NCBI GenBank assembly: GCA_963678705.1
Contig: OY783208.1
Location: forward strand, 24,736,095 to 24,800,094
DNA from: Panorpa germanica
Taxonomy: Eukaryota > Arthropoda > Insecta > Mecoptera > Panorpidae
DNA length: 64,000 bases
Direction of reading: 5' to 3'
Shown here in pieces: positions 7,689 to 64,000 of this stretch; position 1 is the first letter of the stretch, and every line of letters starts with the position of its first letter. Both the position numbers and the translations under genes were made by a program. The notes beneath the pieces were generated by a model, which ran no database searches, was not told the origin of the DNA, and saw only the letters and a program-made list of their open reading frames with translations.

Positions 7689-8044
7689 TGTTTCCGTTTA
7701 AACATAGGTCGGTTAGGGTTCGCAAAGAGTATTAAAACTTTCCTTACATAATGATAAATTATGGTCGTTAGGAAAGTGATTTTCTTGACACGTTTTTTTG
7801 GTATTAGATATTTTGTGAGCTAAATATCCCACTACAAAAACGCACCACGCTCTTAATGGGGGCGTAAGTTTGTCGGTAAGGGGAAACCAGGGCAAGGGGA
7901 AATGTTTGCGTTGGCGAAGCAGAATGAAACAAGAATCGACAAACCCGTAACAACTCTACTATCAAATTTACACATTTTTGAACAAGTTGAAACACGTTAA
8001 CTCCTATCATATATAGTACCATATATAAAACGCCAGCTCTTCGT

Positions 8045-31872: not shown

Positions 31873-31921
31873 CAAAACTTTGCAACGATGTTATAATTTA
31901 AAACCCGGTTGCAAAGTTTTG
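31873..31921. repeat. Conserved 14-bp stem hairpin downstream of SPH-FREP A
   Basis: CAAAACTTTGCAAC (31873-31886) is followed after 21 bp by its reverse complement GTTGCAAAGTTTTG (31908-31921). The same hairpin is present after copy B, at about 50162-50210. Confidence 0.55.
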
Positions 31922-32213
31922 ACCCAAAAATTAAATTGCCTTAAATAGTTGAAGAAAAGTAGAAAATCTCTCTCTCTCTTATCTTTTTATTACAAATTTA
32001 TGTATTTATTAAAATAATATTCAAATAACGCGCGCTTTCCATAGAAAGAGTTAAGTAAAGCCGCCATCTTGAATATTATTTTAAATATAAATTAAATATA
32101 TAATAAAAAATGGATTGTATTGAAATATATAAATAAAGATGAATCCCTCAAATATCCAATGATTTTGAAATAAATAACACTACTTATTATATTCTATTCA
32201 GTTCGTGACGTCA

Positions 32214-32360
32214 GTAAAACGAAATTCAAACTTTAAATAGCTATATCTCCGTCAACATTTGGATATTTAATACAATAGACACGCCAATACACATTTATTA
32301 ACATCAATTTCAATCAACAATTGAAAAATCGACCACTACAAAATGAGGACACAAGCCCAA
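32214..32360 (+). mobile_element. MITE family 3' fragment
   Basis: The last ~147 bp of the ATGGGCTTGTGTCCT family (AGACACGCCAATACACATT to GGACACAAGCCCA). The same fragment is at 50574-50711 in block B, so it predates the segmental duplication. Confidence 0.8.
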
Positions 32361-32795
32361 TTCAGTAAAGTTGATTTCTTTGCTGTAGAGTTTTTGCTGT
32401 TATGTGTGTTGCCTTCAATTCAGGCGCATCGACTCTTACTAAATTTAAACGATTAATTTTATTTAATGTCTGTTTATTTTTAGATTCTAGTCTTATAACC
32501 AACAACCTATTGTTACGAGTAGACAGCTACGTGTATTATTCAAGATATAAACAATTAAAATAGTCATTTAAAGAACCAGGATAATTAAAGGGACAAAAGT
32601 TAGCAAGAAATGAAAGATGTGATTCAAATTGCTGTTATTTGTGTTGCCATCAATTCAGGGGCACATCAATACAAAATAAAACACCAGCTGCAGTCAGACA
32701 ATATTTTATATATTTACAAAATATTCACATAATTTAAATCAAATCTCAAAACAAAAATCACAATTAATTCTTAAATTAACGCAAACAATTCATTT

Positions 32796-34581
32796 TTAGG
32801 CCGGCGTCTTCTTCTTCTTCTTCTTATTCTGGGACGTTGTGGATTTCGATTTGACTTCCGGTTCCTTATTTACAACTTCCACATGGATTCTGGATTCCGG
32901 AAGTAAAGCTAAAGTGTACACTGGGTAGATTCCTCTAGGCATGTCGCTCTGTTTCCGTTGTTTAATGCATTTGAGCCCCGCTTTCGTCAACAATTGGTGC
33001 AACAATGGTAGACCCCTAGTTACAGACGAGTCTTCGTCATCGACTTCCACCTTCCCTGGAATAAAAGAACAAATTGTTGAATAATACCTCACAAAACGTA
33101 AACTTACGTAATAATTGTGATACATTAAATAAATGAATTAAATAACTAATTGATGTGAATGTACAACGTATTAAGTTTATTGTGTGAAAATTTGAAGTCG
33201 ATTGGAGTAAAACTGTCGGAGATATAGAGTTTTAAGTCTTCACCTCTCTGGTCTGGTTTCGTCTTTCTTTGAAACTTTTAAACGCGTTTTTCTCACACTT
33301 AGCTTTTTCAGAGTCTAGCTCAAAATCTACTGCACCGATCCGCAATGAAATTTTGCACACTCTTTCTTTACATAAATGCCGAGGTAACGCTGTCGAGTTA
33401 CTTAACAGGGTGTCCTGCAGAAACTTATCAACTAATGAAATCATTTTGGTTTTTTGATTTCAAATAATCCAGTGATGAGTTATGAGTTACTCTTTTTGTG
33501 ACGTCACCGGAGATTCGCTGTCAATGGCTCATTTCTTGATATTTATTTATGAAAATTTCACAAAGTATTCTTTAAATGTCATTTTATCATGTAGTAATTA
33601 TAGAAGTAATTATATATTAAATGTGACGTCAAAAAACATTATCGAAAATATACTTTTTTGTATTGATTTGACCTTAAGTTAAATATTAAGATTTAGGTTC
33701 TTTTTAGAGGCACACAATTCACACTGCTACAAAAATCAACTTTAAACCTAATTTTACCTTAAATCTCACTAAACCTCACTAAATATAGCGCTTGACAACT
33801 GGTCAAAACATTAAGGACACTTATATTAACGTCAAATTTAAATTGTAAGTGGTTTTACTGGCGAACTACCTTAGAATCATTTACTGTATGTAATGTAATG
33901 TATTGTATGTATTAATTATGTAACATTACATAAAAATAAAGTGTTTTATTAACTTCACAAAATGTAAATGTAAATGTAACCTCACTTAACCTTAAATTAA
34001 TGTTGGTACTCACCAGAAGATGTGCAGTTTTCTTTAACAATGATTATTCCATTCTCCGAGAGCCCCTTCATACACCTTTTAAAGAAATCAATAAAGTCAG
34101 AGTCCCCCCCTGAGGTGCCCCAAAACCCACTGACACCAAATAATATCGTACTTTTTGTCAACCGGCTCAAAATCTTGTAAACCAGTTGCATAGTAATTGC
34201 CAATATTAGGAGACGAACCAAGAAAACACTCAGCAGCTTTTAAAAAATCAGAATTTTGTTCAACGAGATCAACTTGGTCAAATATTGGCAATAATAAATG
34301 TTTGGTTATCCTCCCAATACCGGCCCCACAATCTAAAGCACATTGTTTACCCGGAGCACCACACCACTCATTTTAAATAACTCTTCTAAAAATTGTCTGG
34401 AACCTTTAATATCAGTTTGTGAGATAAAACCAAAACCTCCTAACATTCCTTCAATTGTTGCCGGTACTTTTTTCCAATATTTAGCTGCATTTTCATAGAA
34501 AACACTTTTACAATTTTCACTTACTGTCAAACTTTGTAAACGATTAACCTCAAAATTTAAATCATTTGTAGTAGCCTCCAT
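32796..34581 (-). CDS. NTMT1: N-terminal Xaa-Pro-Lys N-methyltransferase 1 (NTMT1), two apparent frameshifts
   Basis: Two exons on the minus strand, 34014-34581 and 32796-33055, with a GTGAGT donor and a TTATTCCAG acceptor that join in phase (SSG/KVEVDDEDSSV). NTMT1 methylates the alpha-amine of proteins starting X-Pro-Lys. Evidence: YWKKVPATIEGMLGGFG, SAM-binding motif LDCGAGIGRITKHLLLP, GLQDFEP, YDIIWCQWVLGHL, GIIIVKEN and DDEDSSV. Two frame breaks lie in exon 1: near 34350-34365 (between FKMSG and GAPGKQ) and at a G7 homopolymer (34103-34109). A homopolymer indel is typical of a sequencing error, but real decay cannot be excluded. The protein has an extra lysine-rich tail of about 30 residues, with a (AAG)n codon run, beyond the usual family end. 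Transcription converges with SPH-FREP A. Confidence 0.85.
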
Positions 34582-45500: not shown

Positions 45501-48500
45501 AACGCAGGTAGGTCCAATGTTTATTCCACACACAAGACTTCCTGTACTGATTTCATGTTCCCGTGGGTCACGTGGCCTACAAATTCGTTTGACATTCGAA
45601 GGATAATAAACAAATAAAACTTGTAATAACAAATTAAATAGCAATATAAAAAGACATAATACAAGTATATCAAACTAAGAACCAGAAATGTAAACGATTT
45701 TGTAAAACAAGTAATGTGGTACACCTGTAGACATGGAGGAAGTGAAGTCAAAACGTGCAAAGTAGGAGGAAGTCTGTCTTAAATAGAAGATGCTGCGGAT
45801 CGAGTTACACAGAGCAGAGAAATGGAAACTTCGGTGAGGACAACAAAAGGGCGCAGGAATCGTATAACAGATGTTAAAACGAAACCAGCAGGGCGAGAAG
45901 ATTATATCGAGATGAAAACTGGATCTACATAACTCAGTGATTCTCGGTCAAATGAAACTGATAAAGGCAATGATAAATTTAGCAAGAAAAAGGAAAAAAA
46001 CTGAAGCTACATCCGGATATATAGAATCATTTAAAATCTAAAGGAAACTTCAATGGAGCCCAACTCTTTGATCGTGGGGGCTTCAAACTGTGTTTTATGC
46101 CACCCCTACCTGTATGGAAAACAATAAAAAATTATAAATGGACAACGACCTTCAGTCTGGCTGGATGATAAAAAGGAGCCATCATCTAAACTGGTTCGGT
46201 ACAAGATCAAACTAATGGAAACAAATTCTGTATCCAGCCCTGAATAACCATGTAGGAATCGAAGCAGACGTTGAGGCACCTGTATCTAACAAACCCCAGA
46301 AGTTGTATTCCAATGAGACTCGAAGCCACACCAGAACAAATAGAAGAACCAGCTATACATTGGTAAATACTAAAGAAAAACTACTGAGCTACTAAAGACT
46401 GATCAAAAATCATCGAACCCTGATGACCAGAGGACTGAAAGAAAAATACAATTAGTGGTACATAAATAAAGATACAGAAAGTTGTGTAACATGTGAAACA
46501 AATAAATAAACAAGAAAAAACCCAAAATCAATTGAATAGAATAAATAGCAGAGCTGTAACGTTTTAAAAATGAAATACCTTCGCCCAACAAAAATGCACA
46601 ACAAATGAACATAAAGAGGAAATCAAGATAATTCAGAAGACGTTGAAAGATGAATAAAGGAAACCTTACACAGAAGACAATTTACCGTTAGGAAGAATAA
46701 TCAAAGCAGACGCGTGTCAGACAAGCTATGAAATTAAAATCATAATCCACATTCCATTAATTGATAACACCCTGTATTCCAATCAAACGAAAATCTGTTG
46801 TCCAATTAATAATCCCTTCTAATAAATGTCTAGCTACAGCAAATGCATAGGTTGCAGGCGTAACAAAGAAGAAGAACCACTCAAATAATTCTCACCACGC
46901 GAAGTCCAATTAATGCCAAAACAAAAGAACTCTTCGTGTATTGGACAAACGTCCGAATCCTTTGCAGACATCATCGACCCTACAAAGCAATGCACCCTTC
47001 AGGGATGCAACAAGTAGGAGCTAAGACGAATTGGAAGGTGCTACCCCTGATGACCATCTTTGAGAATGTCACTGCCAAAGGAATACAACAGCTGGACCTG
47101 CATAACATCAACCAGGACGAGTTTAAACCAATAACAAGACTGTACCAGGATGTAAAACCCATAAAAACCTAGAATTAAGTAATAAACACATGCAGTTAAT
47201 GATGCTGCAGTAATTAAACTATGTGTCCCTAAAGTAACAGGTTTAACTTAGATAGATATTTCCAAAAAGACAAAGAACGAGAAAATTAACAAAACGAAAA
47301 TCAATTAACTTTGAAGGAAATCAAATGACAATAAATTAAAATTAAAATTTCCATTCTTGGTAAGGAGGAGTTAAGGAAACAACCATTCCAGGAAACTGTC
47401 AAAGTTTGGAATGACATCCGGCATCTCAAGATGAAGCAATAGAACTAGAAGACATAATTAGGAATGGCTCAATCGCTGCTGCTTAGGATCTAGACGCACA
47501 AGAGTTTTATCCAATAGTTGTCTTCATTCACAGAGAATTGTAAATTACAAAAGTCCATTAATCTAACGTTGTCAGTGGCGTGCCATTTATGTTATGCAAA
47601 TACAAAACTAATGGGCCCTATAACTTGGTTGACAACAGGTTGGTGGTTGAATTTCATGTGGAAACCACGGTTGAAGTGAGTTCAAAAACTTTTGACATTT
47701 GGTGGGCGGAGCCTGATGTCGGTGATTAGCCGTGTCGACAGAAATAAATCAATTTCGTTCAAAATTAGAAGTTTCTAGATCGAAAATTGTAGCTAGCATT
47801 ATTATGTCGATATTTGTTGGCCATTTTATGTATCGTCCCACGCACCAGAGTTGAATCAGGTCGGGCTTTCTTGGAGGGCGCTTATATGGAAAACAAATAA
47901 CAACGGCTAGGAAATGAAAGTTAAATGCAAAGGCCATTGTTTCTTCTTTCACATTTCTATTGATTTGCTAAATAATTGACCGATTTGTTATTTGATAATA
48001 AATTGTTTTTAAAATATTATTTTTGACTTCATATAGTTTTATGCTCTTGAAAATATGATCTTCTATGGATGTAATTGTTATATGGAGTAACGCAAAAAAA
48101 CATTAAACTTAACTGCTGAAATGATATATAACTAATCCCGGGATTGACTCTTTCAAATCCCGAAATCCCGACTATAAGAATATTAAAAATATTAAAGAAA
48201 CTAATAGAAAATAATTCACAACCCAATTGTTTTAAAATTATGTCCCCCTCCCATCACTAGACAAACCGGGCAACACCGGGTATTAGGAGTTGATAACAAA
48301 TAAACTTAACACATAACACACTTTGCGACGTGAACGTGTTATTAAATGTTAAATTATTGATTAAGTAATGTGGTTAACACGTTGAGGACGGAGCACGGAG
48401 TACGGAACACGTTGTGTTTTACTTTTGTAGAAAATTTAAATTATTTGACGTTGAAAACAACAGGAAGTTTTATGTTTTGTTTCCCCGTTGTCCATTGGTT

Positions 48501-49608
48501 GTAAAATAATCCCCCCCCCCTCTCCGTCGCCCCGTCCCGTCGTGAACGTGTTAACAACGGATGGTTGTGTTGTGTGCCCAGTTGTTGGTTTGTTTGTACC
48601 GCAGTGTTCTTGTTATTGTTTCAGGCGACTCCATGTACAAACCACCTCACGGCGGCGGCAACAACTACCTGAATGGAATGAAATTCTCTACGTACGACAA
48701 GGACCAGGACAAGTCGTCGTATAACTGTGCTGAGTTGTGGCAAGGTGCCTGGTGGTACAATAATTGTGCGAACAGGTAACTATCTGCATCTGCGTCTGCG
48801 TCACGTGACGCGTGATGTGACGGTCCTCTAGAGTGTAGGATTGCCACCTCATCGAATGCCCGGGCCTAGACACATTATCTCCAGGCCACGGGTTTACTTA
48901 TTCCTACTGCGGGTCTGCGAGTTCTGTCACAAAACACACAATTATTCGTTTCCATGTTACAACATTTTCTCCGCGGCAGTTCAGGAATATGAATCCGTTA
49001 AATATTCAAACTTTCATCAAATTTCAACAGATTTATTAAACTGAAAATAAGACATTATACTTAAACTAGTAAAATATTTTAGAACTTTTGCTTTAATTAA
49101 GGTAGTTGTGCCGCGACACTAACTTCTATAGCTGTCCTACTCTTTCTAATACACGTCCTATATTTAGGTTAACTTTTTTACGTTAATGTTATGTCAGATT
49201 ACATTAAGAAAAATATTCGTTTGACATAAATTTACGTTTTTTGTTCACCGGGTGATTGAAAGCAGTTTTATTAGATGAAATAAAAATATGCAGCAACCCA
49301 ATGAAACTCCCATCGCTTTGTTGCGGATTTAGATTTTTGTAATTTATGATTTTCAGTGAATTGACTAAAATATATTTCAGTGCAGAGTTCATGGCAACAT
49401 TCAGTTGTTGTCAGTTGGTAACCCTGATCCATTTATGTTCACCCTGTGTTTTTGTGTTGGTACTATTCTAACGTTGTGTTTTACTTGCAGCCATTTGAAC
49501 GGTCCGTACCATGACTCGGCTGTGTATGGTGATAAGATAATTAAGTGGTATTTCAACTTTGGCAAGTACACACTTAAAACATCGCGGATGCTGATCAGAA
49601 GGAAATGA
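42535..49608 (+). CDS. Serine-protease-homologue/fibrinogen-like chimera (SPH-FREP), copy B, 516 aa
   Basis: Twelve exons: 42535-42591, 42892-43015, 43085-43232, 43305-43477, 43544-43633, 43716-43855, 44132-44276, 44738-44880, 45099-45215, 45363-45507, 48625-48775, 49491-49608; 1551 nt, all GT-AG and in phase. Domain order matches copy A, and the same inactivating changes are present (TSAYC for TAAHC; HNGAGL for GDSGGP), so the pseudoprotease state predates duplication. Differences are concentrated: exon 6 ([17 protein letters not shown] against [17 protein letters not shown]), exon 11 around the calcium site (two compensating indels) and exon 12. Constant parts such as [15 protein letters not shown] and MLIRRK are unchanged. 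Intron 10 is much longer than in copy A. Intact and probably expressed; a diversified paralogue. Confidence 0.9.
45600..47830. other. Copy-B-specific content of SPH-FREP intron 10
   Basis: Copy A has about 0.7 kb of unrelated sequence at this place (28560-29285); copy B has about 2.2 kb. The stretch is richer in G/C and less repetitive than its surroundings. A frame near 46238 reads [10 protein letters not shown], reminiscent of LINE RNase H, and 46936-47172 is open for 78 codons. It may be a decayed retroelement, but no family is established. Confidence 0.35.
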
Positions 49609-51133
49609 TCAGCGAAAAACAAAACCGCAAAAACAAAAACACACAGGGAGGGAAGGAAATGAAAGGAACAGAACCACGAGACAGAAAGAGAGAGAGAGAG
49701 AGAGAACAGAGTGGAATTAATTAGTGAATTTAATTAGTCCGACATCTTCATAAAATAAAAATTCCACTTGTAAAACTAATGTGTCAATTATTAAAAGTAC
49801 AGGGTGTCCAAAAGGCGACTACTAACTTATTTAAATAGCGTAAATATAGAACACAAACAATAGGGAACATGCCTACAATTTAAAATTCATTAAATTTCTT
49901 AAAACCCTGGAAGATTATGTTAAGTTCATTAGTGGGACATCTCCGAATAATTAAAGTTTGAGCATTTAGAACACTACACCTGGTTCAATAGGCAGACAAC
50001 TCATAAATGCACAAGAGATGTCTCACTAATGAACTGGACGGTAATTAAAAAGAAAATTAGTTGTTTCATTAAAATTTACAAAAATCAGAAAATATCAAAC
50101 AATGGACTTAACCGCGTTGTCTTTTGGGCGGCTCATCTAGTAAGTTGTTTCTCGGAGGGGACAAAACTTTGCAACGATGTTATAATTTAAAACCCGGTTG
50201 CAAAGTTTTGACCCAAATGAACTTATAAAACAAAATTTAAACTAAAATCAAAAAAAAGGAAAAATTGCCTTAAATAGTTAAAGAAAAATGAAAAATCTCT
50301 CTCTCTCTCTCTCTTTCTCTCTCCTATCTTTTTATTACAAATTTATGTATTTACTAAAATAATATTCAAATAACGCGCGCTTTCCATAGAAAGAGTTAGG
50401 TAAAGCCGCCATCTTGAATATTATTTTAAATATAAATTAAATATTATAAATATATAATAAAAAATGGATTGTATTGAAATATATAAATAAAAATGAATCC
50501 CTCAAATATCCAATGATTTTGAAATAAATAACACTACTTATTATATTCTATTCAGTTCGTGACGTCAGTAAAACGAAACTCAAACTTTAAATAGCTATAT
50601 CTTCGTCAATTTTTGGATATTATAAAATAGACACGCCAATACACATTTATTAACATCAATTTCAATCTACAATTGAAAAATCGACCACTACAAAATGAGG
50701 ACACAAGCCCAATTCAGTAAAGTTGATTTCTTTGCTGTTGTGTGTGTTGCCTTCAATTCAGGCGCATCGACTCTTACTAAATTTAAACGATTAATTTTAT
50801 TTAATGTCTGTTTATTTTTAGATTCTAGTCTTATAACGAACAACCTATTGTTACGAGTAGACAGCTACATGTATTATTGAAGATATAAACAATTAAAATA
50901 GTCATTTAAAGAACCACGATAATTAAAGGGACAAAAGTTAGCAAGAAATGAAAGATGTGATTCAAATTGCTGTTATTTGTGTTGCCATCAATTCAGGGGC
51001 ACATCAATACAAAATAAAACACCAGCTGCAGTCAGACAATATTTTATATATTTACAAAATATTCACATAATTTAAATCAAATCTCAAAACAAAAATCACA
51101 ATTAATTCTTAAATGAACGCAAACAATTCATTT
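49609..51133. other. Region between SPH-FREP B and the NTMT1 exon copy
   Basis: Parallels 31316-32795: GA microsatellite (about 49686-49705), ACAGGGTGTCC repeat (49795), hairpin (about 50162-50210), CT run (about 50296-50325) and MITE fragment (50574-50711). No gene is seen. Confidence 0.5.
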
Positions 51134-51384
51134 TTAGGCCGGCGTCTTCTTCTTATTCTGGGACGTTGTGGATTTCGATTTGACCTCCGGTTCCTTATTT
51201 ACAACTTCCACATGGATTCTGGATTCCGGAAGTAAAGCTAAAGTGTACACTGGGTAGATTCCTCTAGGCATGTCGCTCTGTTTCCGTTGTTTAATGCATT
51301 TGAGCCCCGCTTTCGTCAACAATTGGTGCAACAATGGTAGACCCCTAGTTACAGACGAGTCTTCGTCATCGACTTCCACCTTCC
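51134..51384 (-). pseudogene. NTMT1: NTMT1 final exon, copy B (rest of gene interrupted or off-window)
   Basis: The 251-nt exon with its acceptor is intact and matches the block A exon, except that three lysine codons of the (AAG)n run are missing. Upstream the intron follows block A only to 51577, where the palindromic element starts. No NTMT1 exon 1 follows inside the window. If the block was duplicated whole, exon 1 should lie beyond the element, so this may be an intron-inserted gene and not a true pseudogene. Confidence 0.75.
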
Positions 51385-51604
51385 CTGGAATAAAAGAACA
51401 AATTGTTGAATAATACCTCACAAAACGTAAACTTACGTAATAATTGTGATACATTAAATAAATGAATTAAATAACTTATTGATATGAATGTACAACGTAT
51501 TAAGTTTATTGTGTGAAAATTTGAAGTCGATTGGAGTAAAACTGTCGGAGATATAGAGTTTTAAGTCTTCACCTCTCAGTAGAGGGTTTGTGAGAGTTCT
51601 GGAA

Positions 51605-51618
51605 CCTCCCATGGGAGG
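51605..51618. repeat. Perfect 14-bp palindrome near the element terminus
   Basis: CCTCCCATGGGAGG lies 27 bp inside the inferred left end of the polymerase element. It could be a protein-binding site or chance. Confidence 0.4.
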
Positions 51619-51834
51619 GAATTTAAGTATAGGTAAGCGACGTACGTCCCATGTTATTAGTATAGGAGAATAAATACAAGGTGTCTAAAAAGGGTTGCCA
51701 GTATATGAAATATATGAAAATATTGAAATTATTGAAGTTTTATGCTTGGAATAGGGTGTTCCAGAATAATATTTATAGGTATATAATTATATGTAATGTT
51801 ATAATAATAGAATTATAATACACCTACGTTTCAT

Positions 51835-53592
51835 GTTTTTTATTTTTTAGAAATTAAATCCGCCATTTTGACTAAAATTTTTTTACTTTCGTTTTCTAAA
51901 CGTGTTCTCCTGTTAGGATGTTGGTACTGATGGGGGATAAATTTTTTATCAAAAATGCAATATCTTCAATCGTTTACAAGATATTTAAAGTTTTATTTTT
52001 TAGAAATTAAATCCGCCATTTTGACTAAAATTTTTTTACTTTCGTCTTCTAAACGTGTTCTCCTGTTAGGGTATTGGTACTGATGGGGGATAAATTTTTT
52101 ATCAAAAATGCAATATCTTCAACCGTTTACGAGATATTTAAAGTTTTATTTTTTAGAAATTAAATCCGCCATTTTGACTAAAATTTTTTTACTTTCGTCT
52201 TCTAATCGTGTTCTCCTGTTAGGGTATTGGTACTGATGGGGGATAAATTTTTTATCAAAAATGCAATATCTTCAACCGTTTACGAGATATTTAAAGTTTT
52301 ATTTTTTAGAAATTAAATCCGCCATTTTGACTAAAATTTTTTTACTTTCGTCTTCTAAACGTGTTCTCCTGTTAGGGTATTGGTACTGATGGGGGATAAA
52401 TTTTTTATCAAAAATGCAATATCTTCAACCGTTTACGAGATATTTAAAAATTTATTTTTTAGAAATTAAATCCGCCATTTTGACTAAAATTTTTTTACTT
52501 TCGTCTTCTAATCGTGTTCTCCTGTTAGGGTATTGGTACTGATGGGGGATAAATTTTTTATCAAAAATGCAATATCTTCAACCGTTTACGAGATATTTAA
52601 AGTTTTATTTTTTAGAAATTAAATCCGCCATTTTGACTAAAATTTTTTTACTTTCGTCTTCTAATCGTGTTCTCCTGTTAGGGTATTGGTACTGATGGGG
52701 GATAAATTTTTTATCAAAAATGCAATATCTTCAACCGTTTACGAGATATTTAAAGTTTTATTTTTTAGAAATTAAATCCGCCATTTTGACTAAAATTTTT
52801 TTACTTTCGTCTTCTAAACGTGTTCTCCTGTTAGGGTATTGGTACTGATGGGGGATAAATTTTTTATCAAAAATGCAATATCTTCAACCGTTTACGAGAT
52901 ATTTAAAGTTTTATTTTTTAGAAATTAAATCCGCCATTATGACTAAAATTTTTTTACTTTCGTCTTCTAATCGTGTTCTCCTGTTAGGGTATTGGTACTG
53001 ATGGGGGATAAATTTTTTATCAAAAATGCAATATCTTCAACCGTTTACGAGATATTTAAAGTTTTATTTTTTAGAAATTAAATCCGCCATTTTGATTAAA
53101 ATTTTTTTACTTTCGTCTTCTAAACGTGTTCTCCTGTTAGGGTATTGGTACTGATGGGGGATAAATTTTTTATCAAAAATGCAATATCTTCAACCGTTTA
53201 CGAGATATTTAAAGTTTTACTTTTTAGAAATTAAATCCGCCATTTTGACTAAAATTTTTTTACTTTCGTCTTCTAAACGTGTTCTCCTGTTAGGGTATTG
53301 GTACTGATGGGGGATAAATTTTTTATCAAAAATGCAATAACTTCAACCGTTTACGAGATATTTAAAGTTTTATTTTTTTAGAAATTAAATCCGCCATTTT
53401 GACTAAAATTTTTTTACTTTCGTCTTCTAAACGTGTTCTCCTGTTAGGATATTGGTACTGATGGGGGATAAATTTTTTATCAAAAATGCAATATCTTCAA
53501 CCGTTTACGAGATATTTAAAGTTTTATTTTTTAGAAATTAAATCCGCCATTTTGACTAAAATTTTTTTACTTATGTCTTGTAAATGTGTTCT
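51835..53592 (+). repeat. 153-bp tandem array, left arm (about 11.4 units)
   Basis: The unit contains AAATCCGCCATTTTGACTAAAA and CTGATGGGGGATAAATTTTT. The landmark CGCCATTTT starts at 51861 and then every 153 bp to 53545, with a single 1-bp insertion. Units are about 97-99% alike and differ at a few sites (AAACGTG or AATCGTG). No ORF crosses the array. Its last unit decays just before the polymerase promoter region. Confidence 0.95.
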
Positions 53593-53623
53593 TTAAATAT
53601 CATATGGTATTTACAGAAATATA

Positions 53624-53690
53624 CGATGATAGCCGAAGATAGCCGATGATAGCCGATGATAGCCGAAGATAGCCGATGATATCCGAAGAT
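53624..53690 (+). repeat. Short GATAGCCGA(T/A) repeats, left arm
   Basis: A ~10-bp unit (GATGATAGCC / GAAGATAGCC) occurs about seven times between the 153-bp array and the polymerase gene. Mirrored at 63031-63097. Confidence 0.85.
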
Positions 53691-53850
53691 GCACAAAGAT
53701 TATTGCTTAAATAGATATATTTAACATTTTTTTATTTAATATTGTTGAATGCAGTTGAATGAGAACATCTGTTGAAAAAAGAACTGCAAATATATAATAT
53801 TTTTTTTATAATAAGAAGAAAATAATAAGTGTTAAAAAAAGATTTATGAG

Positions 53851-56800
53851 ATGTATACCTGCAAAGAGTGTAATACATTATTTTCAAGATTAGATAATCT
53901 GAAACGTCATGAAAATGTATCTTGTAATTCAAATAAATTTTTGTGTGAATATTGTGGTTTAACATATACAAATATAAGAAATTATACTAATCATTTATTG
54001 AAAATACATCAAATTGAATTTGAGTGTAATAATAAACGCAAATTGGATGCTGAACCTGAAATATCAAGTAAACGATCCAAAACGGAGTTAATTGAGAGTT
54101 CATTAACTAAAAAGAAAATTACGGATTGGTGTAATGCATGCAAAAGTAATGTGTTAAATAAAAATCTATATAACCATTATAGAAGTAATGAGCATAAAAG
54201 ACTAGCAAGTGTAGATGTAGAATGCGATAATGATATACAAAAAATTACTTCAGCATTTAAAAATCGTATTGCGGCATATAGATTACATACCAAAGAAATG
54301 TTTAACAGTATTAAAGAATATATGATATTTTTTCAAAATAAAGTATTCGTGTTATTGGGAAAGTATTTGGAAGAATTTAATACAATTAAAGTAAATATTG
54401 AATTATTTGGTTTATATGTAAAATATAATAAAGATGAGGAGTTATTAATTGATATAAAATCTTTTAACACTAAAAATAAAGTGATTAATAAATCCATTGA
54501 TCTAAAGGAAATATATAATAATTTTAGAAAAGTTATTGAAATAAAAAGTGAAGAATTTCAACAACGTGATTCAGGATGGAGTCTTAAAGAGATAATGCAT
54601 TTGGAAATAAATATTAACAGATATAATCCTTTGCGGGGATCATCTTATATTGATTTACCAAAGAAAGTTAAAGATAAAAAGGCTATAGTAAATGTAGTAA
54701 ATAATGATCAAGCTTGCTTTATGTGGGCTATAACTTCAGCATTGTATCCAGCATCAAAAGGTATGACTAGAGTTACATCATATCCACATTATTCAAAAGT
54801 ACTTAATTCAAATGGTATAGAATTACCGATGAAATTAAAAGATATTAGAACATTTGAGCATAATAATGATATAAGTGTGAATGTATATGGACTTGAAAAT
54901 AATTCCATTGTGGGACCGTTGCATTATACATCTAAGAAGAAGAAACAACATGTTAATTTATTGTATATTGAAGATTTGAGTAATGGACATTATTGTTGGA
55001 TTAAAAATATGTCAAGATTAATAAGAAGTCAATTTACTAAGCATAATGGTAAACAATTTTTGTGTGATGGATGCTTTTCATTTTTTAACACAGAAGATCA
55101 GTTAAATAGACATTTAGAATATGATTGCAATAAGATATATACAATCCTTCCTTCTAAGTATAAGGCTAAAGATAAATTAGGTAATATGAGACCTCAAAAC
55201 ATTTTAAAATTTGATAATTATAAGAATAAATTACGCGTTCCATTTGTGATATATGGAGATTTTGAAACATTATTAAAACCCATTAGTACTTGTTATCCTG
55301 ATACTAATACATCATTTTCAAATAATATTCAAATTCATGAACCATATTCTTTTGCTTATTATATTAAATGTTCCTTTAATGATTCCTTAAGTAAGTTTGT
55401 TACGTACAGAGGTATTAATTGCGTTAAAGTATTTATTGAAACAATAACTGAAGACGCTAAACAAATTTATAAAATCTTAAATAAAGTGAAACCTTTAAAT
55501 AAATTATCTGATTGGCAACAACAGGAATATGATGAAGCTTCTATTTGCCATATTTGTGAAGGTATCCTCAAAGGTGATAAAGTGTTAGATCATTGTCATT
55601 TAACTGGTAATTACCGAGGAGCTGCTCATAATCATTGCAATTTAAAATTTACAATTCCAAAGTTTATACCTGTCATATTCCATAACTTAAGTAATTACGA
55701 TAGCCATATAATTGTAAAAGAATTAGGTAATGATAGTGAAAAAATTGAAGTTATTCCAGAAAATAAGGAAAAGTATATATCTTTTACGAAACATATTTTG
55801 GTGGAATCAAAAGTCGATAAAAATGATAAAGTTCATAACTGCTATATTAAACTTAGATTTATTGATTCTTTACGATTTATGCATTCTAGTTTAGAAACAC
55901 TTGCAAAAAATTTATTATCAGAACAATTTTTCGAATTAAAAAAATTCTATCCGAATGAAAATCATTTCAATTTATTAAAACGTAAAGGTGTATTTCCTTA
56001 TGAATATGTAAATAGTAGGGATATGCTTAATGAATCTGAGTTGCCATCTCAAAATAATTTTTATAGCTCACTTAATGGCTGTAATATATCTGACGATGAT
56101 TACAATCATGCCAAAATGGTTTGGTATGCATTTGAAATGAAAACATTGGGGGAATATTCAGACTTATATTTAAAGATCGATGTTCTGTTGTTAACAGATA
56201 TTTTTGAAAATTTTCGAGATGTGTGCTATAAAACATATAATTTAGATCCCTGTCAATATTATACAGCACCAGGACTTTCTTGGGATGCTATGTTAAAGTA
56301 TACAAGTATTGAATTAGAACTTTTAACAGATATTGATATGTTACATTTTATTAAAAAAGGTATAAGAGGTGGAATATCACAATGCTCTCACAGACATGGA
56401 ATTGCAAATAATAAATATATGTCCAATTATGATTCAAATAAGGATTCTCAATATTTAATGTATTGGGATGCAAATAACTTATATGGTTGGGCTATGAGTC
56501 AATATTTACCACATGAGGGATTTAAATGGTTAGATACATATAAATTACAAACATTTAATGTAGAAGCTATTGAAGATAACTCAGACGTTGGTTATATATT
56601 AGAAGTCGATTTAAGATATCCTAATTATTTGCACGATGAACACAATGATCTACCTTTCTGTGCCGAAAATATTAAACCACCTAGCATTAAAACAAATGAC
56701 GTTAAATTAATACCAAATCTAAATAACAAGTATAATTATGTGCTTCACTATAGATCGTTAAAGCAATGTCTTAAAAATAATCTGAAAATAGATAAAATTC

Positions 56801-57690
56801 ATAGAATTTTGGAATTTAAACAGTCTGATTGGTTAAAAAGTTATATTGATCTAAATACATTAAAAAGAAAGAACTCTGCAAATGCATTTGAGAAAGACTT
56901 TTTTAAATTAATGAATAATTCAGTTTATGGTAAAACAATGGAAAATGTAGATAAACGAGTCGATGTAAAGTTAATAACTCATTGGGATAATATAGGAAAA
57001 AAAATGGGTGCTAATACACTTATAAGTAAACCAAACTATCATAGTTGTTCTATATTTCATGAAAACTTAGTTGCTATTCAAATGCAAAAACTTAAGGTTT
57101 TTTATAATAAACCATTGTATTTAGGATTAAGTGTACTTGATATATCAAAAACTTTAATATACGATTTTCATTATGATTTCATCAAAAAAATCTATAAAGG
57201 TAATGCTAAATTGTTGTATACAGATACAGATTCATTAATATATCAAATTAAAACAGATGATATATATGACGATATTAAGTGTAATCTAGATAAATTTGAT
57301 ACATCTAATTATCCATTTAATAATGAATTTTCATTACCTTTAATGAACAAAGCTAAATTAGGCTTAATGAAAGATGAATGCGCGGGTAGTATAATTTGGG
57401 AGTTTGTTGGGTTAAGATCAAAAATGTATGCAATTGATATTGAGGGTTCATGCACAGCTAAAGCAAAAGGAATTAAGAAAAATATTGTAAACAAATTCAA
57501 TATTAAAGATTATGTAAATTGTTTATCTCAGGATAACATATTATTGATCACAATGAATACCTTTAAATCGATTAAGCATACAATTTATACTCAAATGATA
57601 AGTAAAGTAGGTCTTAGTGGAAATGATAATAAAAGATATGTATTAACTGATGGTATAAGTACTTTAGCACATGGACATTATAAAATTTAG
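53851..57690 (+). CDS. Family-B DNA polymerase with zinc fingers and endonuclease VII motif, left arm, 1279 aa
   Basis: One uninterrupted ORF, starting at the first ATG after an AT-rich leader. Order: C2H2/C2HC fingers (4-25, 32-53, 94-113); a conserved block (about 250-390) with NNDQACFMW (Cys289) and NGHYCWIKN (His380) that could be a papain-like fold; another finger (405-428); exonuclease motif I DFE (470-472); an inserted endonuclease VII-like CxxC...DHCHLTG...HNHC (566-596); exonuclease II SNYD (617) and III YLKID (773-777); polymerase motif A DANNLYGWAM (Asp873), motif B KLMNNSVYGK (1019-1028), motif C YTDTDS (Asp1125, Asp1127) and KMY (1191-1193). All catalytic acids are present. This is the DNA_pol_B_2 type found in protein-primed viruses, linear plasmids and Polintons. 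It probably replicates the element itself. Confidence 0.9.
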   Translation: MYTCKECNTLFSRLDNLKRHENVSCNSNKFLCEYCGLTYTNIRNYTNHLLKIHQIEFECNNKRKLDAEPEISSKRSKTELIESSLTKKKITDWCNACKSNVLNKNLYNHYRSNEHKRLASVDVECDNDIQKITSAFKNRIAAYRLHTKEMFNSIKEYMIFFQNKVFVLLGKYLEEFNTIKVNIELFGLYVKYNKDEELLIDIKSFNTKNKVINKSIDLKEIYNNFRKVIEIKSEEFQQRDSGWSLKEIMHLEININRYNPLRGSSYIDLPKKVKDKKAIVNVVNNDQACFMWAITSALYPASKGMTRVTSYPHYSKVLNSNGIELPMKLKDIRTFEHNNDISVNVYGLENNSIVGPLHYTSKKKKQHVNLLYIEDLSNGHYCWIKNMSRLIRSQFTKHNGKQFLCDGCFSFFNTEDQLNRHLEYDCNKIYTILPSKYKAKDKLGNMRPQNILKFDNYKNKLRVPFVIYGDFETLLKPISTCYPDTNTSFSNNIQIHEPYSFAYYIKCSFNDSLSKFVTYRGINCVKVFIETITEDAKQIYKILNKVKPLNKLSDWQQQEYDEASICHICEGILKGDKVLDHCHLTGNYRGAAHNHCNLKFTIPKFIPVIFHNLSNYDSHIIVKELGNDSEKIEVIPENKEKYISFTKHILVESKVDKNDKVHNCYIKLRFIDSLRFMHSSLETLAKNLLSEQFFELKKFYPNENHFNLLKRKGVFPYEYVNSRDMLNESELPSQNNFYSSLNGCNISDDDYNHAKMVWYAFEMKTLGEYSDLYLKIDVLLLTDIFENFRDVCYKTYNLDPCQYYTAPGLSWDAMLKYTSIELELLTDIDMLHFIKKGIRGGISQCSHRHGIANNKYMSNYDSNKDSQYLMYWDANNLYGWAMSQYLPHEGFKWLDTYKLQTFNVEAIEDNSDVGYILEVDLRYPNYLHDEHNDLPFCAENIKPPSIKTNDVKLIPNLNNKYNYVLHYRSLKQCLKNNLKIDKIHRILEFKQSDWLKSYIDLNTLKRKNSANAFEKDFFKLMNNSVYGKTMENVDKRVDVKLITHWDNIGKKMGANTLISKPNYHSCSIFHENLVAIQMQKLKVFYNKPLYLGLSVLDISKTLIYDFHYDFIKKIYKGNAKLLYTDTDSLIYQIKTDDIYDDIKCNLDKFDTSNYPFNNEFSLPLMNKAKLGLMKDECAGSIIWEFVGLRSKMYAIDIEGSCTAKAKGIKKNIVNKFNIKDYVNCLSQDNILLITMNTFKSIKHTIYTQMISKVGLSGNDNKRYVLTDGISTLAHGHYKI

Positions 57691-58340
57691 TACTAATTTT
57701 AAGTTAAGTTTAAGTTTTGTATAAATTTATATCTGTTTTAGTTAGGATAATTAAAATGTATATTTATATAACAATTGAAAAATAGCATATTTGTAAATAA
57801 ATAATAATATATAAACACAAACCATTGAGTTTTATTATTATAAGATTTAATGTTTTAATACATCCATATAAAATAAGATACACATATTTTATTAGTAATG
57901 TTTTGTTATATATAATTCTTATATGATTAACACTGGTCATAAGAGCTCTAATATATATGCATAGACATATTAATGTATGAGTATGCGTACATAAACTGGA
58001 TGACAATTGTATACGTTATATGCAGCAGCAGTACCCAAATCAATTCATTAGTGAATTCAGGCATGTCAAAAAAAAAACCAATATTTTATTTCTTATTATC
58101 ATACCAACGTAATGGGAATGTAACTTGGAATATTGGAATAGTGGTGTAGGTTAGGTTACACACCCGCAAAGCGAGATTTAGTTTAGAGCCCAAACCCAGG
58201 CCCAGACCCCTACCCGGGCCACCCCACCCGGGTCCGCACCAGAACCCCCCGCCCCAATCTGTACCCCGTAAATAGTTCGAACGTAACTTGAACGTAATGG
58301 GAACGTAATGGGAACGTAACTTGAACGTAACTTGAACGTA
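57691..58340. other. Element inner flank, left arm
   Basis: Between the polymerase stop and the palindrome centre. It is AT-rich to about 58130, then changes abruptly into a GC-rich block (58188-58262) and 11-bp iterons. The minus-strand ORF at 57764-58006 has no recognisable motif. Confidence 0.6.
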
Positions 58341-58533
58341 GAGTATTTATTTTAGAATTCCGTTCAAGTTACGTTCAAGTTACGTTCAAGTTACGTTCAA
58401 GTTACGTTCCCATTACGTTCCCATTACGTTCAAGTTACGTTCGAACTATTTACGGGGTACAGATTGGGGCGGGGGGTTCTGGTGCGGACCCGGGTGGGGT
58501 GGCCCGGGTAGGGGTCTGGGCCTGGGTTTGGGC
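58188..58533. repeat. Palindrome centre: GC-rich blocks and 11-bp iterons around a 40-bp spacer
   Basis: C-rich CCCAGGCCCAGACCCC-type sequence (58188-58262) is followed by 11-bp units ACGTAACTTGA / ACGTAATGGGA (58280-58340), a unique spacer beginning GAGTATTTATTTTAGAATT, then inverted iterons (58361-58441) and the mirrored GC block (to 58533). The right iteron array has two more units than the left, the only clear asymmetry in the palindrome. It resembles a terminal or origin region joined head to head; function inferred. Confidence 0.8.
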
Positions 58534-59030
58534 TCTAAACTAAATCTCGCTTTGCGGGTGTGTAACCTAACCTACACCACTATTCCAATATTCCAAGTTA
58601 CATTCCCATTACGTTGGTATGATAATAAGAAATAAAATATTGGTTTTTTTTTTGACATGCCTGAATTCACTAATGAATTGATTTGGGTACTGCTGCTGCA
58701 TATAACGTATACAATTGTCATCCAGTTTATGTACGCATACTCATACATTAATATGTCTATGCATATATATTAGAGCTCTTATGACCAGTGTTAATCATAT
58801 AAGAATTATATATAACAAAACATTACTAATAAAATATGTGTATCTTATTTTATATGGATGTATTAAAACATTAAATCTTATAATAATAAAACTCAATGGT
58901 TTGTGTTTATATATTATTATTTATTTACAAATATGCTATTTTTCAATTGTTATATAAATATACATTTTAATTATCCTAACTAAAACAGATATAAATTTAT
59001 ACAAAACTTAAACTTAACTTAAAATTAGTA

Positions 59031-62000
59031 CTAAATTTTATAATGTCCATGTGCTAAAGTACTTATACCATCAGTTAATACATATCTTTTATTATCATTT
59101 CCACTAAGACCTACTTTACTTATCATTTGAGTATAAATTGTATGCTTAATCGATTTAAAGGTATTCATTGTGATCAATAATATGTTATCCTGAGATAAAC
59201 AATTTACATAATCTTTAATATTGAATTTGTTTACAATATTTTTCTTAATTCCTTTTGCTTTAGCTGTGCATGAACCCTCAATATCAATTGCATACATTTT
59301 TGATCTTAACCCAACAAACTCCCAAATTATACTACCCGCGCATTCATCTTTCATTAAGCCTAATTTAGCTTTGTTCATTAAAGGTAATGAAAATTCATTA
59401 TTAAATGGATAATTAGATGTATCAAATTTATCTAGATTACACTTAATATCGTCATATATATCATCTGTTTTAATTTGATATATTAATGAATCTGTATCTG
59501 TATACAACAATTTAGCATTACCTTTATAGATTTTTTTGATGAAATCATAATGAAAATCGTATATTAAAGTTTTTGATATATCAAGTACACTTAATCCTAA
59601 ATACAATGGTTTATTATAAAAAACCTTAAGTTTTTGCATTTGAATAGCAACTAAGTTTTCATGAAATATAGAACAACTATGATAGTTTGGTTTACTTATA
59701 AGTGTATTAGCACCCATTTTTTTTCCTATATTATCCCAATGAGTTATTAACTTTACATCGACTCGTTTATCTACATTTTCCATTGTTTTACCATAAACTG
59801 AATTATTCATTAATTTAAAAAAGTCTTTCTCAAATGCATTTGCAGAGTTCTTTCTTTTTAATGTATTTAGATCAATATAACTTTTTAACCAATCAGACTG
59901 TTTAAATTCCAAAATTCTATGAATTTTATCTATTTTCAGATTATTTTTAAGACATTGCTTTAACGATCTATAGTGAAGCACATAATTATACTTGTTATTT
60001 AGATTTGGTATTAATTTAACGTCATTTGTTTTAATGCTAGGTGGTTTAATATTTTCGGCACAGAAAGGTAGATCATTGTGTTCATCGTGCAAATAATTAG
60101 GATATCTTAAATCGACTTCTAATATATAACCAACGTCTGAGTTATCTTCAATAGCTTCTACATTAAATGTTTGTAATTTATATGTATCTAACCATTTAAA
60201 TCCCTCATGTGGTAAATATTGACTCATAGCCCAACCATATAAGTTATTTGCATCCCAATACATTAAATATTGAGAATCCTTATTTGAATCATAATTGGAC
60301 ATATATTTATTATTTGCAATTCCATGTCTGTGAGAGCATTGTGATATTCCACCTCTTATACCTTTTTTAATAAAATGTAACATATCAATATCTGTTAAAA
60401 GTTCTAATTCAATACTTGTATACTTTAACATAGCATCCCAAGAAAGTCCTGGTGCTGTATAATATTGACAGGGATCTAAATTATATGTTTTATAGCACAC
60501 ATCTCGAAAATTTTCAAAAATATCTGTTAACAACAGAACATCGATCTTTAAATATAAGTCTGAATATTCCCCCAATGTTTTCATTTCAAATGCATACCAA
60601 ACCATTTTGGCATGATTGTAATCATCGTCAGATATATTACAGCCATTAAGTGAGCTATAAAAATTATTTTGAGATGGCAACTCAGATTCATTAAGCATAT
60701 CCCTACTATTTACATATTCATAAGGAAATACACCTTTACGTTTTAATAAATTGAAATGATTTTCATTCGGATAGAATTTTTTTAATTCGAAAAATTGTTC
60801 TGATAATAAATTTTTTGCAAGTGTTTCTAAACTAGAATGCATAAATCGTAAAGAATCAATAAATCTAAGTTTAATATAGCAGTTATGAACTTTATCATTT
60901 TTATCGACTTTTGATTCCACCAAAATATGTTTCGTAAAAGATATATACTTTTCCTTATTTTCTGGAATAACTTCAATTTTTTCACTATCATTACCTAATT
61001 CTTTTACAATTATATGGCTATCGTAATTACTTAAGTTATGGAATATGACAGGTATAAACTTTGGAATTGTAAATTTTAAATTGCAATGATTATGAGCAGC
61101 TCCTCGGTAATTACCAGTTAAATGACAATGATCTAACACTTTATCACCTTTGAGGATACCTTCACAAATATGGCAAATAGAAGCTTCATCATATTCCTGT
61201 TGTTGCCAATCAGATAATTTATTTAAAGGTTTCACTTTATTTAAGATTTTATAAATTTGTTTAGCGTCTTCAGTTATTGTTTCAATAAATACTTTAACGC
61301 AATTAATACCTCTGTACGTAACAAACTTACTTAAGGAATCATTAAAGGAACATTTAATATAATAAGCAAAAGAATATGGTTCATGAATTTGAATATTATT
61401 TGAAAATGATGTATTAGTATCAGGATAACAAGTACTAATGGGTTTTAATAATGTTTCAAAATCTCCATATATCACAAATGGAACGCGTAATTTATTCTTA
61501 TAATTATCAAATTTTAAAATGTTTTGAGGTCTCATATTACCTAATTTATCTTTAGCCTTATACTTAGAAGGAAGGATTGTATATATCTTATTGCAATCAT
61601 ATTCTAAATGTCTATTTAACTGATCTTCTGTGTTAAAAAATGAAAAGCATCCATCACACAAAAATTGTTTACCATTATGCTTAGTAAATTGACTTCTTAT
61701 TAATCTTGACATATTTTTAATCCAACAATAATGTCCATTACTCAAATCTTCAATATACAATAAATTAACATGTTGTTTCTTCTTCTTAGATGTATAATGC
61801 AACGGTCCCACAATGGAATTATTTTCAAGTCCATATACATTCACACTTATATCATTATTATGCTCAAATGTTCTAATATCTTTTAATTTCATCGGTAATT
61901 CTATACCATTTGAATTAAGTACTTTTGAATAATGTGGATATGATGTAACTCTAGTCATACCTTTTGATGCTGGATACAATGCTGAAGTTATAGCCCACAT

Positions 62001-62870
62001 AAAGCAAGCTTGATCATTATTTACTACATTTACTATAGCCTTTTTATCTTTAACTTTCTTTGGTAAATCAATATAAGATGATCCCCGCAAAGGATTATAT
62101 CTGTTAATATTTATTTCCAAATGCATTATCTCTTTAAGACTCCATCCTGAATCACGTTGTTGAAATTCTTCACTTTTTATTTCAATAACTTTTCTAAAAT
62201 TATTATATATTTCCTTTAGATCAATGGATTTATTAATCACTTTATTTTTAGTGTTAAAAGATTTTATATCAATTAATAACTCCTCATCTTTATTATATTT
62301 TACATATAAACCAAATAATTCAATATTTACTTTAATTGTATTAAATTCTTCCAAATACTTTCCCAATAACACGAATACTTTATTTTGAAAAAATATCATA
62401 TATTCTTTAATACTGTTAAACATTTCTTTGGTATGTAATCTATATGCCGCAATACGATTTTTAAATGCTGAAGTAATTTTTTGTATATCATTATCGCATT
62501 CTACATCTACACTTGCTAGTCTTTTATGCTCATTACTTCTATAATGGTTATATAGATTTTTATTTAACACATTACTTTTGCATGCATTACACCAATCCGT
62601 AATTTTCTTTTTAGTTAATGAACTCTCAATTAACTCCGTTTTGGATCGTTTACTTGATATTTCAGGTTCAGCATCCAATTTGCGTTTATTATTACACTCA
62701 AATTCAATTTGATGTATTTTCAATAAATGATTAGTATAATTTCTTATATTTGTATATGTTAAACCACAATATTCACACAAAAATTTATTTGAATTACAAG
62801 ATACATTTTCATGACGTTTCAGATTATCTAATCTTGAAAATAATGTATTACACTCTTTGCAGGTATACAT
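59031..62870 (-). CDS. Family-B DNA polymerase with zinc fingers and endonuclease VII motif, right arm, 1279 aa
   Basis: The exact mirror copy of the left-arm gene; the predicted protein is identical over all 1279 residues, so every motif listed there is present. The two genes converge on the palindrome centre, their stop codons being 1340 bp apart. Perfect identity without one silent difference argues for continuous homogenisation, very recent inversion-duplication, or an assembly fold-back. Confidence 0.85.
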   Translation of the reverse strand: MYTCKECNTLFSRLDNLKRHENVSCNSNKFLCEYCGLTYTNIRNYTNHLLKIHQIEFECNNKRKLDAEPEISSKRSKTELIESSLTKKKITDWCNACKSNVLNKNLYNHYRSNEHKRLASVDVECDNDIQKITSAFKNRIAAYRLHTKEMFNSIKEYMIFFQNKVFVLLGKYLEEFNTIKVNIELFGLYVKYNKDEELLIDIKSFNTKNKVINKSIDLKEIYNNFRKVIEIKSEEFQQRDSGWSLKEIMHLEININRYNPLRGSSYIDLPKKVKDKKAIVNVVNNDQACFMWAITSALYPASKGMTRVTSYPHYSKVLNSNGIELPMKLKDIRTFEHNNDISVNVYGLENNSIVGPLHYTSKKKKQHVNLLYIEDLSNGHYCWIKNMSRLIRSQFTKHNGKQFLCDGCFSFFNTEDQLNRHLEYDCNKIYTILPSKYKAKDKLGNMRPQNILKFDNYKNKLRVPFVIYGDFETLLKPISTCYPDTNTSFSNNIQIHEPYSFAYYIKCSFNDSLSKFVTYRGINCVKVFIETITEDAKQIYKILNKVKPLNKLSDWQQQEYDEASICHICEGILKGDKVLDHCHLTGNYRGAAHNHCNLKFTIPKFIPVIFHNLSNYDSHIIVKELGNDSEKIEVIPENKEKYISFTKHILVESKVDKNDKVHNCYIKLRFIDSLRFMHSSLETLAKNLLSEQFFELKKFYPNENHFNLLKRKGVFPYEYVNSRDMLNESELPSQNNFYSSLNGCNISDDDYNHAKMVWYAFEMKTLGEYSDLYLKIDVLLLTDIFENFRDVCYKTYNLDPCQYYTAPGLSWDAMLKYTSIELELLTDIDMLHFIKKGIRGGISQCSHRHGIANNKYMSNYDSNKDSQYLMYWDANNLYGWAMSQYLPHEGFKWLDTYKLQTFNVEAIEDNSDVGYILEVDLRYPNYLHDEHNDLPFCAENIKPPSIKTNDVKLIPNLNNKYNYVLHYRSLKQCLKNNLKIDKIHRILEFKQSDWLKSYIDLNTLKRKNSANAFEKDFFKLMNNSVYGKTMENVDKRVDVKLITHWDNIGKKMGANTLISKPNYHSCSIFHENLVAIQMQKLKVFYNKPLYLGLSVLDISKTLIYDFHYDFIKKIYKGNAKLLYTDTDSLIYQIKTDDIYDDIKCNLDKFDTSNYPFNNEFSLPLMNKAKLGLMKDECAGSIIWEFVGLRSKMYAIDIEGSCTAKAKGIKKNIVNKFNIKDYVNCLSQDNILLITMNTFKSIKHTIYTQMISKVGLSGNDNKRYVLTDGISTLAHGHYKI

Positions 62871-63030
62871 CTCATAAATCTTTTTTTAACACTTATTATT
62901 TTCTTCTTATTATAAAAAAAATATTATATATTTGCAGTTCTTTTTTCAACAGATGTTCTCATTCAACTGCATTCAACAATATTAAATAAAAAAATGTTAA
63001 ATATATCTATTTAAGCAATAATCTTTGTGC

Positions 63031-63097
63031 ATCTTCGGATATCATCGGCTATCTTCGGCTATCATCGGCTATCATCGGCTATCTTCGGCTATCATCG
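63031..63097 (-). repeat. Short GATAGCCGA(T/A) repeats, right arm
   Basis: Mirror image of 53624-53690, reading ATCGGCTATCTTCGGCTATC on the plus strand. Confidence 0.85.
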
Positions 63098-63128
63098 TAT
63101 ATTTCTGTAAATACCATATGATATTTAA

Positions 63129-64000
63129 AGAACACATTTACAAGACATAAGTAAAAAAATTTTAGTCAAAATGGCGGATTTAATTTCTAAAAAATAAAAC
63201 TTTAAATATCTCGTAAACGGTTGAAGATATTGCATTTTTGATAAAAAATTTATCCCCCATCAGTACCAATATCCTAACAGGAGAACACGTTTAGAAGACG
63301 AAAGTAAAAAAATTTTAGTCAAAATGGCGGATTTAATTTCTAAAAAAATAAAACTTTAAATATCTCGTAAACGGTTGAAGTTATTGCATTTTTGATAAAA
63401 AATTTATCCCCCATCAGTACCAATACCCTAACAGGAGAACACGTTTAGAAGACGAAAGTAAAAAAATTTTAGTCAAAATGGCGGATTTAATTTCTAAAAA
63501 GTAAAACTTTAAATATCTCGTAAACGGTTGAAGATATTGCATTTTTGATAAAAAATTTATCCCCCATCAGTACCAATACCCTAACAGGAGAACACGTTTA
63601 GAAGACGAAAGTAAAAAAATTTTAATCAAAATGGCGGATTTAATTTCTAAAAAATAAAACTTTAAATATCTCGTAAACGGTTGAAGATATTGCATTTTTG
63701 ATAAAAAATTTATCCCCCATCAGTACCAATACCCTAACAGGAGAACACGATTAGAAGACGAAAGTAAAAAAATTTTAGTCATAATGGCGGATTTAATTTC
63801 TAAAAAATAAAACTTTAAATATCTCGTAAACGGTTGAAGATATTGCATTTTTGATAAAAAATTTATCCCCCATCAGTACCAATACCCTAACAGGAGAACA
63901 CGTTTAGAAGACGAAAGTAAAAAAATTTTAGTCAAAATGGCGGATTTAATTTCTAAAAAATAAAACTTTAAATATCTCGTAAACGGTTGAAGATATTGCA
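63129..64000 (-). repeat. 153-bp tandem array, right arm (runs off the window)
   Basis: Mirror image of the left array. Private unit variants are mirrored too: GCCATTATGAC (52939) appears as GTCATAATGGC (63778), and the CAATAACTTC variant (53335) appears as GAAGTTATTG (63377). At least 5.5 units are visible. Confidence 0.95.

Follow-up and report, generated by a model that had tools for sequence, protein, structure and literature searches.

A palindromic, polymerase-bearing element, probably derived from Polintons, in the genome of Panorpa germanica

Polintons, or Mavericks (adintoviruses), are the closest described relatives of the element that we report here. In intact vertebrate Mavericks, the terminal inverted repeats (TIRs) measure 46-1,447 bp, the ends are mostly (AGT)2 or (AG)3, 6-bp duplications are present, and eight conserved genes are carried, or seven in one species (PMC8097293). 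In this study, we have analysed 64,000 nucleotides of the Panorpa germanica genome (assembly GCA_963678705.1, contig OY783208.1, positions 24,736,095 to 24,800,094; hereafter the window), which a genome search places at C5:24736095-24800094, the terminal part of contig C5. From position 51578 onwards the window is occupied by an element that resembles Polintons in its predicted protein-primed family-B DNA polymerase (PolB), its AGT-type termini, its TIRs and, at other members of its family, 6-bp duplications, and the same genome contains relatives that have integrase, ATPase and capsid genes. Unlike in Mavericks, however, the TIR makes up almost the entire element, and PolB, present twice, is the sole gene found.

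Adenovirus symmetric recombinants and similar palindromic molecules carry one end of a protein-primed replicon twice; such recombinants take their polymerase from a helper and are not known to form a dispersed integrated family. We know of no palindromic integrated element of bidnaviruses. Those viruses have a PolB of the same structural neighbourhood as ours but, unlike the element described here, a parvovirus-type capsid gene and a single-stranded DNA genome (PMC4061559). The snap-back genomes of adeno-associated virus (AAV) are also comparable, being self-complementary, symmetric or looped, and derived from either end (PMC8235507), but AAV relies on Rep and hairpin ends, whereas the palindromes reported here sit in the chromosomes as insertions at many loci and have kept a polymerase gene. 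Our searches of the literature on Polintons/Mavericks and inverted repeats, which covered subscription papers and preprints thinly, found no palindromic Polinton among the papers listed, in keeping with the suggestion of a preliminary description of this DNA that the layout is new.

That description had also proposed two long arms complementary about 58360/58361 with an identical polymerase gene in each, and both points hold. Each position x has its complement at 116721-x, without a single mismatch, across 52721-58340 and the mirror 58381-64000, that is over 5,620 bp per arm, and the last base of the window still lies inside the palindrome. All 17 mismatches fall within the innermost 20 positions (58341-58360), where the centre is imperfectly symmetric and is flanked by 11-bp arrays of unequal length (58279-58340 and 58361-58442). 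From the outside inwards, each arm consists of a 153-bp satellite, a short 10/30-bp array, an inward-reading open reading frame (ORF) of 1279 codons, a GC-rich stretch and an 11-bp array. Both ORFs match one protein at 100%. The proposed mirroring of the satellite arrays stands base for base over their visible extent, the right array being incomplete at the contig end. Because contig C5 stops there, the right end of this copy is unassembled; from symmetry, we predict the right terminus at window coordinate 65143. The features are as follows.

51572 to 51577, no strand: left flank CCTCTC, a predicted target-site duplication whose right partner is unassembled (junction compared with two uninterrupted paralogues)
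51578 to 51837, plus: left terminus and pre-satellite part, beginning AGTAGAGGGTTTGTGAGAG (exact junction; genome matches)
51838 to 53592, plus: 153-bp satellite array of about 11.5 units (tandem-repeat finding)
53624 to 53690, plus: 10/30-bp tandem repeat preceding PolB (tandem-repeat finding)
53851 to 57690, plus: left PolB gene, 1279 amino acids, with C2H2 fingers, possible terminal-protein-like and OTU-like parts, exonuclease, palm and Endonuclease_7 motif
57691 to 58278, plus: PolB 3' region, with the GC-rich stretch close to the inner end
58279 to 58340, plus: 11-bp repeat array (GAACGTAACTT), inner end of the left arm
58341 to 58360, no strand: asymmetric centre, holding every palindrome mismatch
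58361 to 58442, minus: 11-bp repeat array, inner end of the right arm
59031 to 62870, minus: right PolB gene, identical to the left one and convergent with it
63031 to 63097, minus: mirror of the 10/30-bp repeat
63129 to 64000, minus: mirror satellite array, clipped by the contig end

The left end of the element is exact: it starts at 51578 with AGTAGAGGG, a terminus of the AG/AGT type that recurs as mirrored termini at nine other loci. The insertion site can be read without the element because a segmental duplication within the window supplies paralogues. The stretch 48172-51577 is 93.7% alike to 29882-33248, the likeness between these duplicates breaks off between CACCTCTC and AGTAGAGGG, and two insertion-free paralogues (at about 33249 and 15073) run on as CACCTCTC-TGGTCTGG. 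The segmental duplication is direct (22355-25523/36307-39470 and 29882-33248/48172-51577, about 94-95% alike in these blocks) and includes two copies of a GDP-fucose O-fucosyltransferase ORF; the second copy of the duplication is interrupted by the element.

Our analysis concerns one genome, in which most loci were read at their ends only. The PolB protein matched 37 rows, of which 24 cover its full length and lack a stop. Once sorted, these rows resolved into 14 loci, the window counted, at which a plus-strand PolB copy is followed by a convergent minus-strand copy. The gap between the two copies is 1,326-1,388 bp at 12 of the 14, 1,345 bp at C181 if the second fragment is used, and 1,936 bp at C233, there between matches ending at residue 1195. 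A genome search with the terminus (51578-51838) scored 40 matches among 62 candidates, and such matches lie on both sides, in opposite orientation, at 11 of the 14 PolB loci. Both ends were retrieved for 10 loci besides the window; nine have both termini, with an element length of 12,926-15,404 bp, and seven of these nine are bounded by identical 6-bp flanks (TTTGTA, CATATA, TGCAAC, GATATT, CACGTC, TATAAA and GACCTG). Under equal base use, the chance of at least seven in nine is about 2e-24. Since these duplications surround elements with both ends, whole palindromes are the inserting unit, and the earlier view that the element is mobile is borne out.

These data also answer, for the family, the case that the preliminary description had named against itself, namely an assembly or sequencing fold-back whose second arm is absent from the genome. 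The window taken alone fits such an artefact, with its identical arms and a contig that terminates within the second one. At the other loci, however, both termini are seen, seven of nine with 6-bp duplications joined to host sequence on each side, and a related palindrome on contig C7 has diverged arms, as described below; we thus regard a fold-back artefact as highly improbable. The window palindrome is confirmed as real and as a member of a dispersed mobile family. Instability is expected of long perfect palindromes, yet the elements of 13-16 kb found here are palindromes that insert as units.

Two further loci, C15:915013-934108 (19.1 kb) and C7:7767608-7784609 (17.0 kb), have the same termini and no PolB pair, and are candidates for single-arm relatives or for the parent. 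As for the convergent PolB pair of the window (53851-57690/59031-62870), read-through transcripts would be self-complementary and a possible source of small RNAs; convergent gene pairs of this kind predict transcripts usable by host small-RNA systems.

The 1279-amino-acid protein is only partly recognised by profile searches. Pfam and PHROGs report zinc fingers and Endonuclease_7 only, the C2H2 fingers and the Endonuclease_7 motif both lying slightly below Pfam cut-offs, and searches of PDB sequences return zinc fingers and, with the single-sequence query, faint matches to influenza PA. Homologues are abundant (6,258 matches among 7,977 scored candidates), the organism-named entries among the 120 matches listed being insects. 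We base the polymerase assignment on motifs, on homologues and on fold. The exonuclease and polymerase motifs are conserved across 28 aligned sequences, and three of these 28 homologues reach Pfam DNA_pol_B_2. The model of the core (residues 431-1279; mean predicted local distance difference test score, pLDDT, 91.7) has phi29 DNA polymerase as its closest solved structure, while among viral models adintovirus PolB is closest, together with densovirus and bidnavirus PolBs. By these motifs and this modelled fold, the protein is a PolB of the Polinton/adintovirus, protein-primed type. The model of residues 111-471 (pLDDT 81.8, predicted template-modelling score 0.52) weakly matches Y-family polymerases (E 5e-3, probability 0.99). 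Such a weak likeness would be expected of a terminal protein of LF/PAD descent (PMC11071308), and the region is a possible terminal-protein domain of that descent, an agreement short of proof. Cys289 and His380, invariant in the 28 sequences, may belong to a viral OTU (vOTU) part, and an OTU fold is absent from the 50 fold matches listed for the N-terminal model. In viral contigs, a single-sequence PolB scan gave no match, and an alignment-based scan retrieved two contigs. One of them (L001) encodes an rve integrase and an A32 ATPase beside a 39% identical PolB (10 of its 12 ORFs scanned); for the other (L002), rve was not reported among the 10 of 13 ORFs scanned, and the longest inverted repeat listed for either is 62 nt.

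Fuller Polintons were met in a content-blind sample of the genome (twenty 10-kb stretches and a single 2-kb one), one stretch of which, on C7 near 5.0 Mb (L010), holds Polinton sequence. At this Polinton-rich site there are genes for an integrase (rve and chromo domains), for an A32 ATPase, for a protein with a PLA2 domain and for a capsid protein of the double-jelly-roll type (E 3.7e-99); the 153-bp satellite and similar 11-bp repeats lie close by. The capsid protein has at least 130 scored matches in the genome, and a capsid row lies within 9 kb of 21 of the 43 integrase rows on C1 and C5, the sole contigs counted. Fuller Polintons are thus common in this genome and are possible helpers. When the proteins of this site were compared with the window, the integrase gave no tblastn match, and the ATPase, PLA2 and capsid proteins were unmatched at E 1e-4; in the left arm, there is no stop-to-stop frame of at least 90 amino acids other than PolB. 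With no rve integrase, ATPase or capsid gene found in it, the visible element is, as far as seen, polymerase-only and nearly all TIR, as had been proposed. We take it to be derived from Polintons and to work with Polinton parts, yet it is not a canonical Polinton.

The same region of C7 contains a palindrome of another kind (C7:4,987,479-5,000,663; 13,185 bp), whose mirrored termini read AGTAGGGTAGGAGAGCGG and whose target-site duplication is AGAGTG. Its inverted arms are 97.4% alike over 4,003 columns (BLAST), with 104 substitutions in 4,000 columns, 27 of these in the 2,923 non-satellite columns, and they enclose a loop of 2.76 kb (L021 6765-9523). Arms that have diverged in this way are not expected from an assembly fold-back. 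They carry an ATPase and a PolB piece that are 98% like those of L010 and the window, respectively, so that the element looks chimeric, its ATPase resembling one Polinton subfamily and its PolB piece another. The window terminus is unmatched in the three stretches read here (L019-L021), this element having another terminus. The C7 sequences L019, L010 and L021 contain the 153-bp satellite at a likeness of about 93-96%, and similar 11-bp arrays occur in L010 and L021 as well as at the centre of an integrase palindrome (L047, below). Near the junctions of the looped palindrome, 11-bp arrays are also present and may be template-switch points.

Integrase genes occur in palindromes as well. The L010 integrase has at least 128 scored matches in the genome, and from 128 rows we picked by eye seven divergent pairs, with start-to-start spacings of 3,353-3,665 bp. 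One element, C17:8,038,124-8,053,871 (15,748 bp; L047-L049), was read whole in three pieces. Compared with its own reverse complement, it is 99.92% identical over the central 10 kb and 99.86% over the outer 2.9 kb; it has an intact 309-amino-acid integrase ORF in each arm, central 11-bp arrays, the duplication ACTTAT, and broken or scrambled PolB pieces, 90-98% like the window PolB in the matches shown. A palindromic structure throughout is demonstrated for C17 alone, the five other loci tested having been read at their ends. Duplications accompany four of these (C4, GCAGTG; C6, TTAGAC; C3, CATATA; C1 at 22.18 Mb, AACGTG), or five of the six tested with C17 included. On C5 (7556971-7561016) and C8 (998435-1007391) there are also divergent pairs of capsid-protein rows, and capsid-bearing inverted elements may exist. 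The fuller Polintons and the integrase-bearing palindromes add to the preliminary description, which overall is partly supported; the replication through a hairpin or head-to-head dimer that it suggested is a hypothesis.

Based on these results, our preferred reading, to which we give a probability of roughly 0.7, is that the window element is a fold-back ("snap-back") derivative of a Polinton, now established as a lineage that propagates with its own PolB for copying and the integrase of another element for insertion. We infer the replication route, the parent and the cooperation between PolB and integrase from the sequences. In this model, a linear Polinton capped by terminal protein would be copied by strand displacement, and the growing strand would fold back at the 11-bp repeat array and then copy itself to its starting end. 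The resulting hairpin would open in the next round through initiation at the new end, giving a linear duplex with an identical origin at both ends. Having retained the polymerase gene, the palindrome could be copied by its own enzyme from two origins, and an rve-type integrase of another element, either a fuller Polinton or an integrase palindrome, would insert it with a 6-bp duplication. What is expected of a snap-back product, self-complementarity with one end present twice, is seen in the arms of the window and in both ends at the other loci.

Several observations weigh against this reading. The right end of the window copy is unseen, and we saw neither replication intermediates nor transcripts, nor an element in the act of integrating. 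On C7, the fuller Polinton has PolB pieces just 31-42% identical to the window PolB; the direct parent is missing, as no full-size element combining the window PolB with other Polinton genes was identified. Eight PolB rows are unpaired, although one of them (C13:11.747 Mb) nevertheless crosses a centre and enters an inverted PolB end. At C6:20.83 Mb, the retrieved ends did not show the terminus motif, and two of the nine both-ended PolB palindromes, those on the short contigs C82 and C209, are without a target-site duplication (C209 starts 10 bp past an integrase match of another element), as is one of the six tested integrase pairs, on C1 at 0.92 Mb. Finally, the termini of the integrase palindromes (AGTAGGGTAGTAG, AGTAGTTGAGG) are related to those of the PolB palindromes but different, and we therefore only propose that PolB palindromes borrow this integrase.

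The palindromes could alternatively be defective by-products made by a helper, with no propagation of their own and every insertion terminal. Shapes of this sort are indeed produced by AAV, whose symmetric and looped snap-back genomes arise from either end (PMC8235507), but an uninterrupted full-length PolB frame is present in 24 of the 37 rows and the gap is almost equal at 13 of the 14 loci. Moreover, in a comparison of the window gene with the decayed pieces in L021, the non-synonymous proportion is below the synonymous one (pN 0.014, pS 0.029; 29 and 14 changes, one codon omitted), which together with the open frames and the even gap suggests, short of proof, a selected lineage. We therefore find the by-product explanation unlikely. 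A gap that hardly varies, together with the many PolB frames that have stayed open, also suggests one propagating lineage more than repeated accidents. A single accidental duplication was likewise considered, and rejected.

A palindrome born once in the chromosome, by inverted duplication or gene conversion between repeats rather than episomally, and then spread as a unit, appears quite unlikely to us. Nothing seen indicates where the first palindrome was born, and the nested and rearranged Polinton pieces on C7 indicate that such sequence recombines. Against this, three different palindrome contents (PolB; integrase; ATPase with a PolB piece) occur with mirrored termini and duplications, and 11-bp arrays lie at the centre or in the loop of all three kinds, which favours a recurrent process. 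We give hardly any credence to a cut-and-paste transposon of the Foldback/Galileo type with a captured polymerase gene. The long inverted repeats partly built of tandem repeats do recall Galileo, but the Polinton-type PolB fold, the AGT-type termini, the 6-bp duplications like those of Mavericks (PMC8097293) and the relatives with Polinton genes all argue otherwise.

The insertion of such palindromes as units suggests that a virus-like self-synthesising transposon can drop nearly everything but its polymerase and use one end twice, and fold-back replication of Polintons becomes testable in an animal genome. Polymerase and integrase may moreover be divided between partner palindromes. We put forward tentatively, as somewhat less probable than not, a split (bipartite) Polinton, in which PolB and integrase would reside in two fully palindromic lineages, each making up for what the other lacks and both spreading jointly as inherited insertions, the capsid being left to fuller Polintons.

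Elsewhere in the window, two more imperfect fold-backs are present at 725-1249 and 8028-9363, about 82% self-inverse, the second with a 144-bp tandem repeat.

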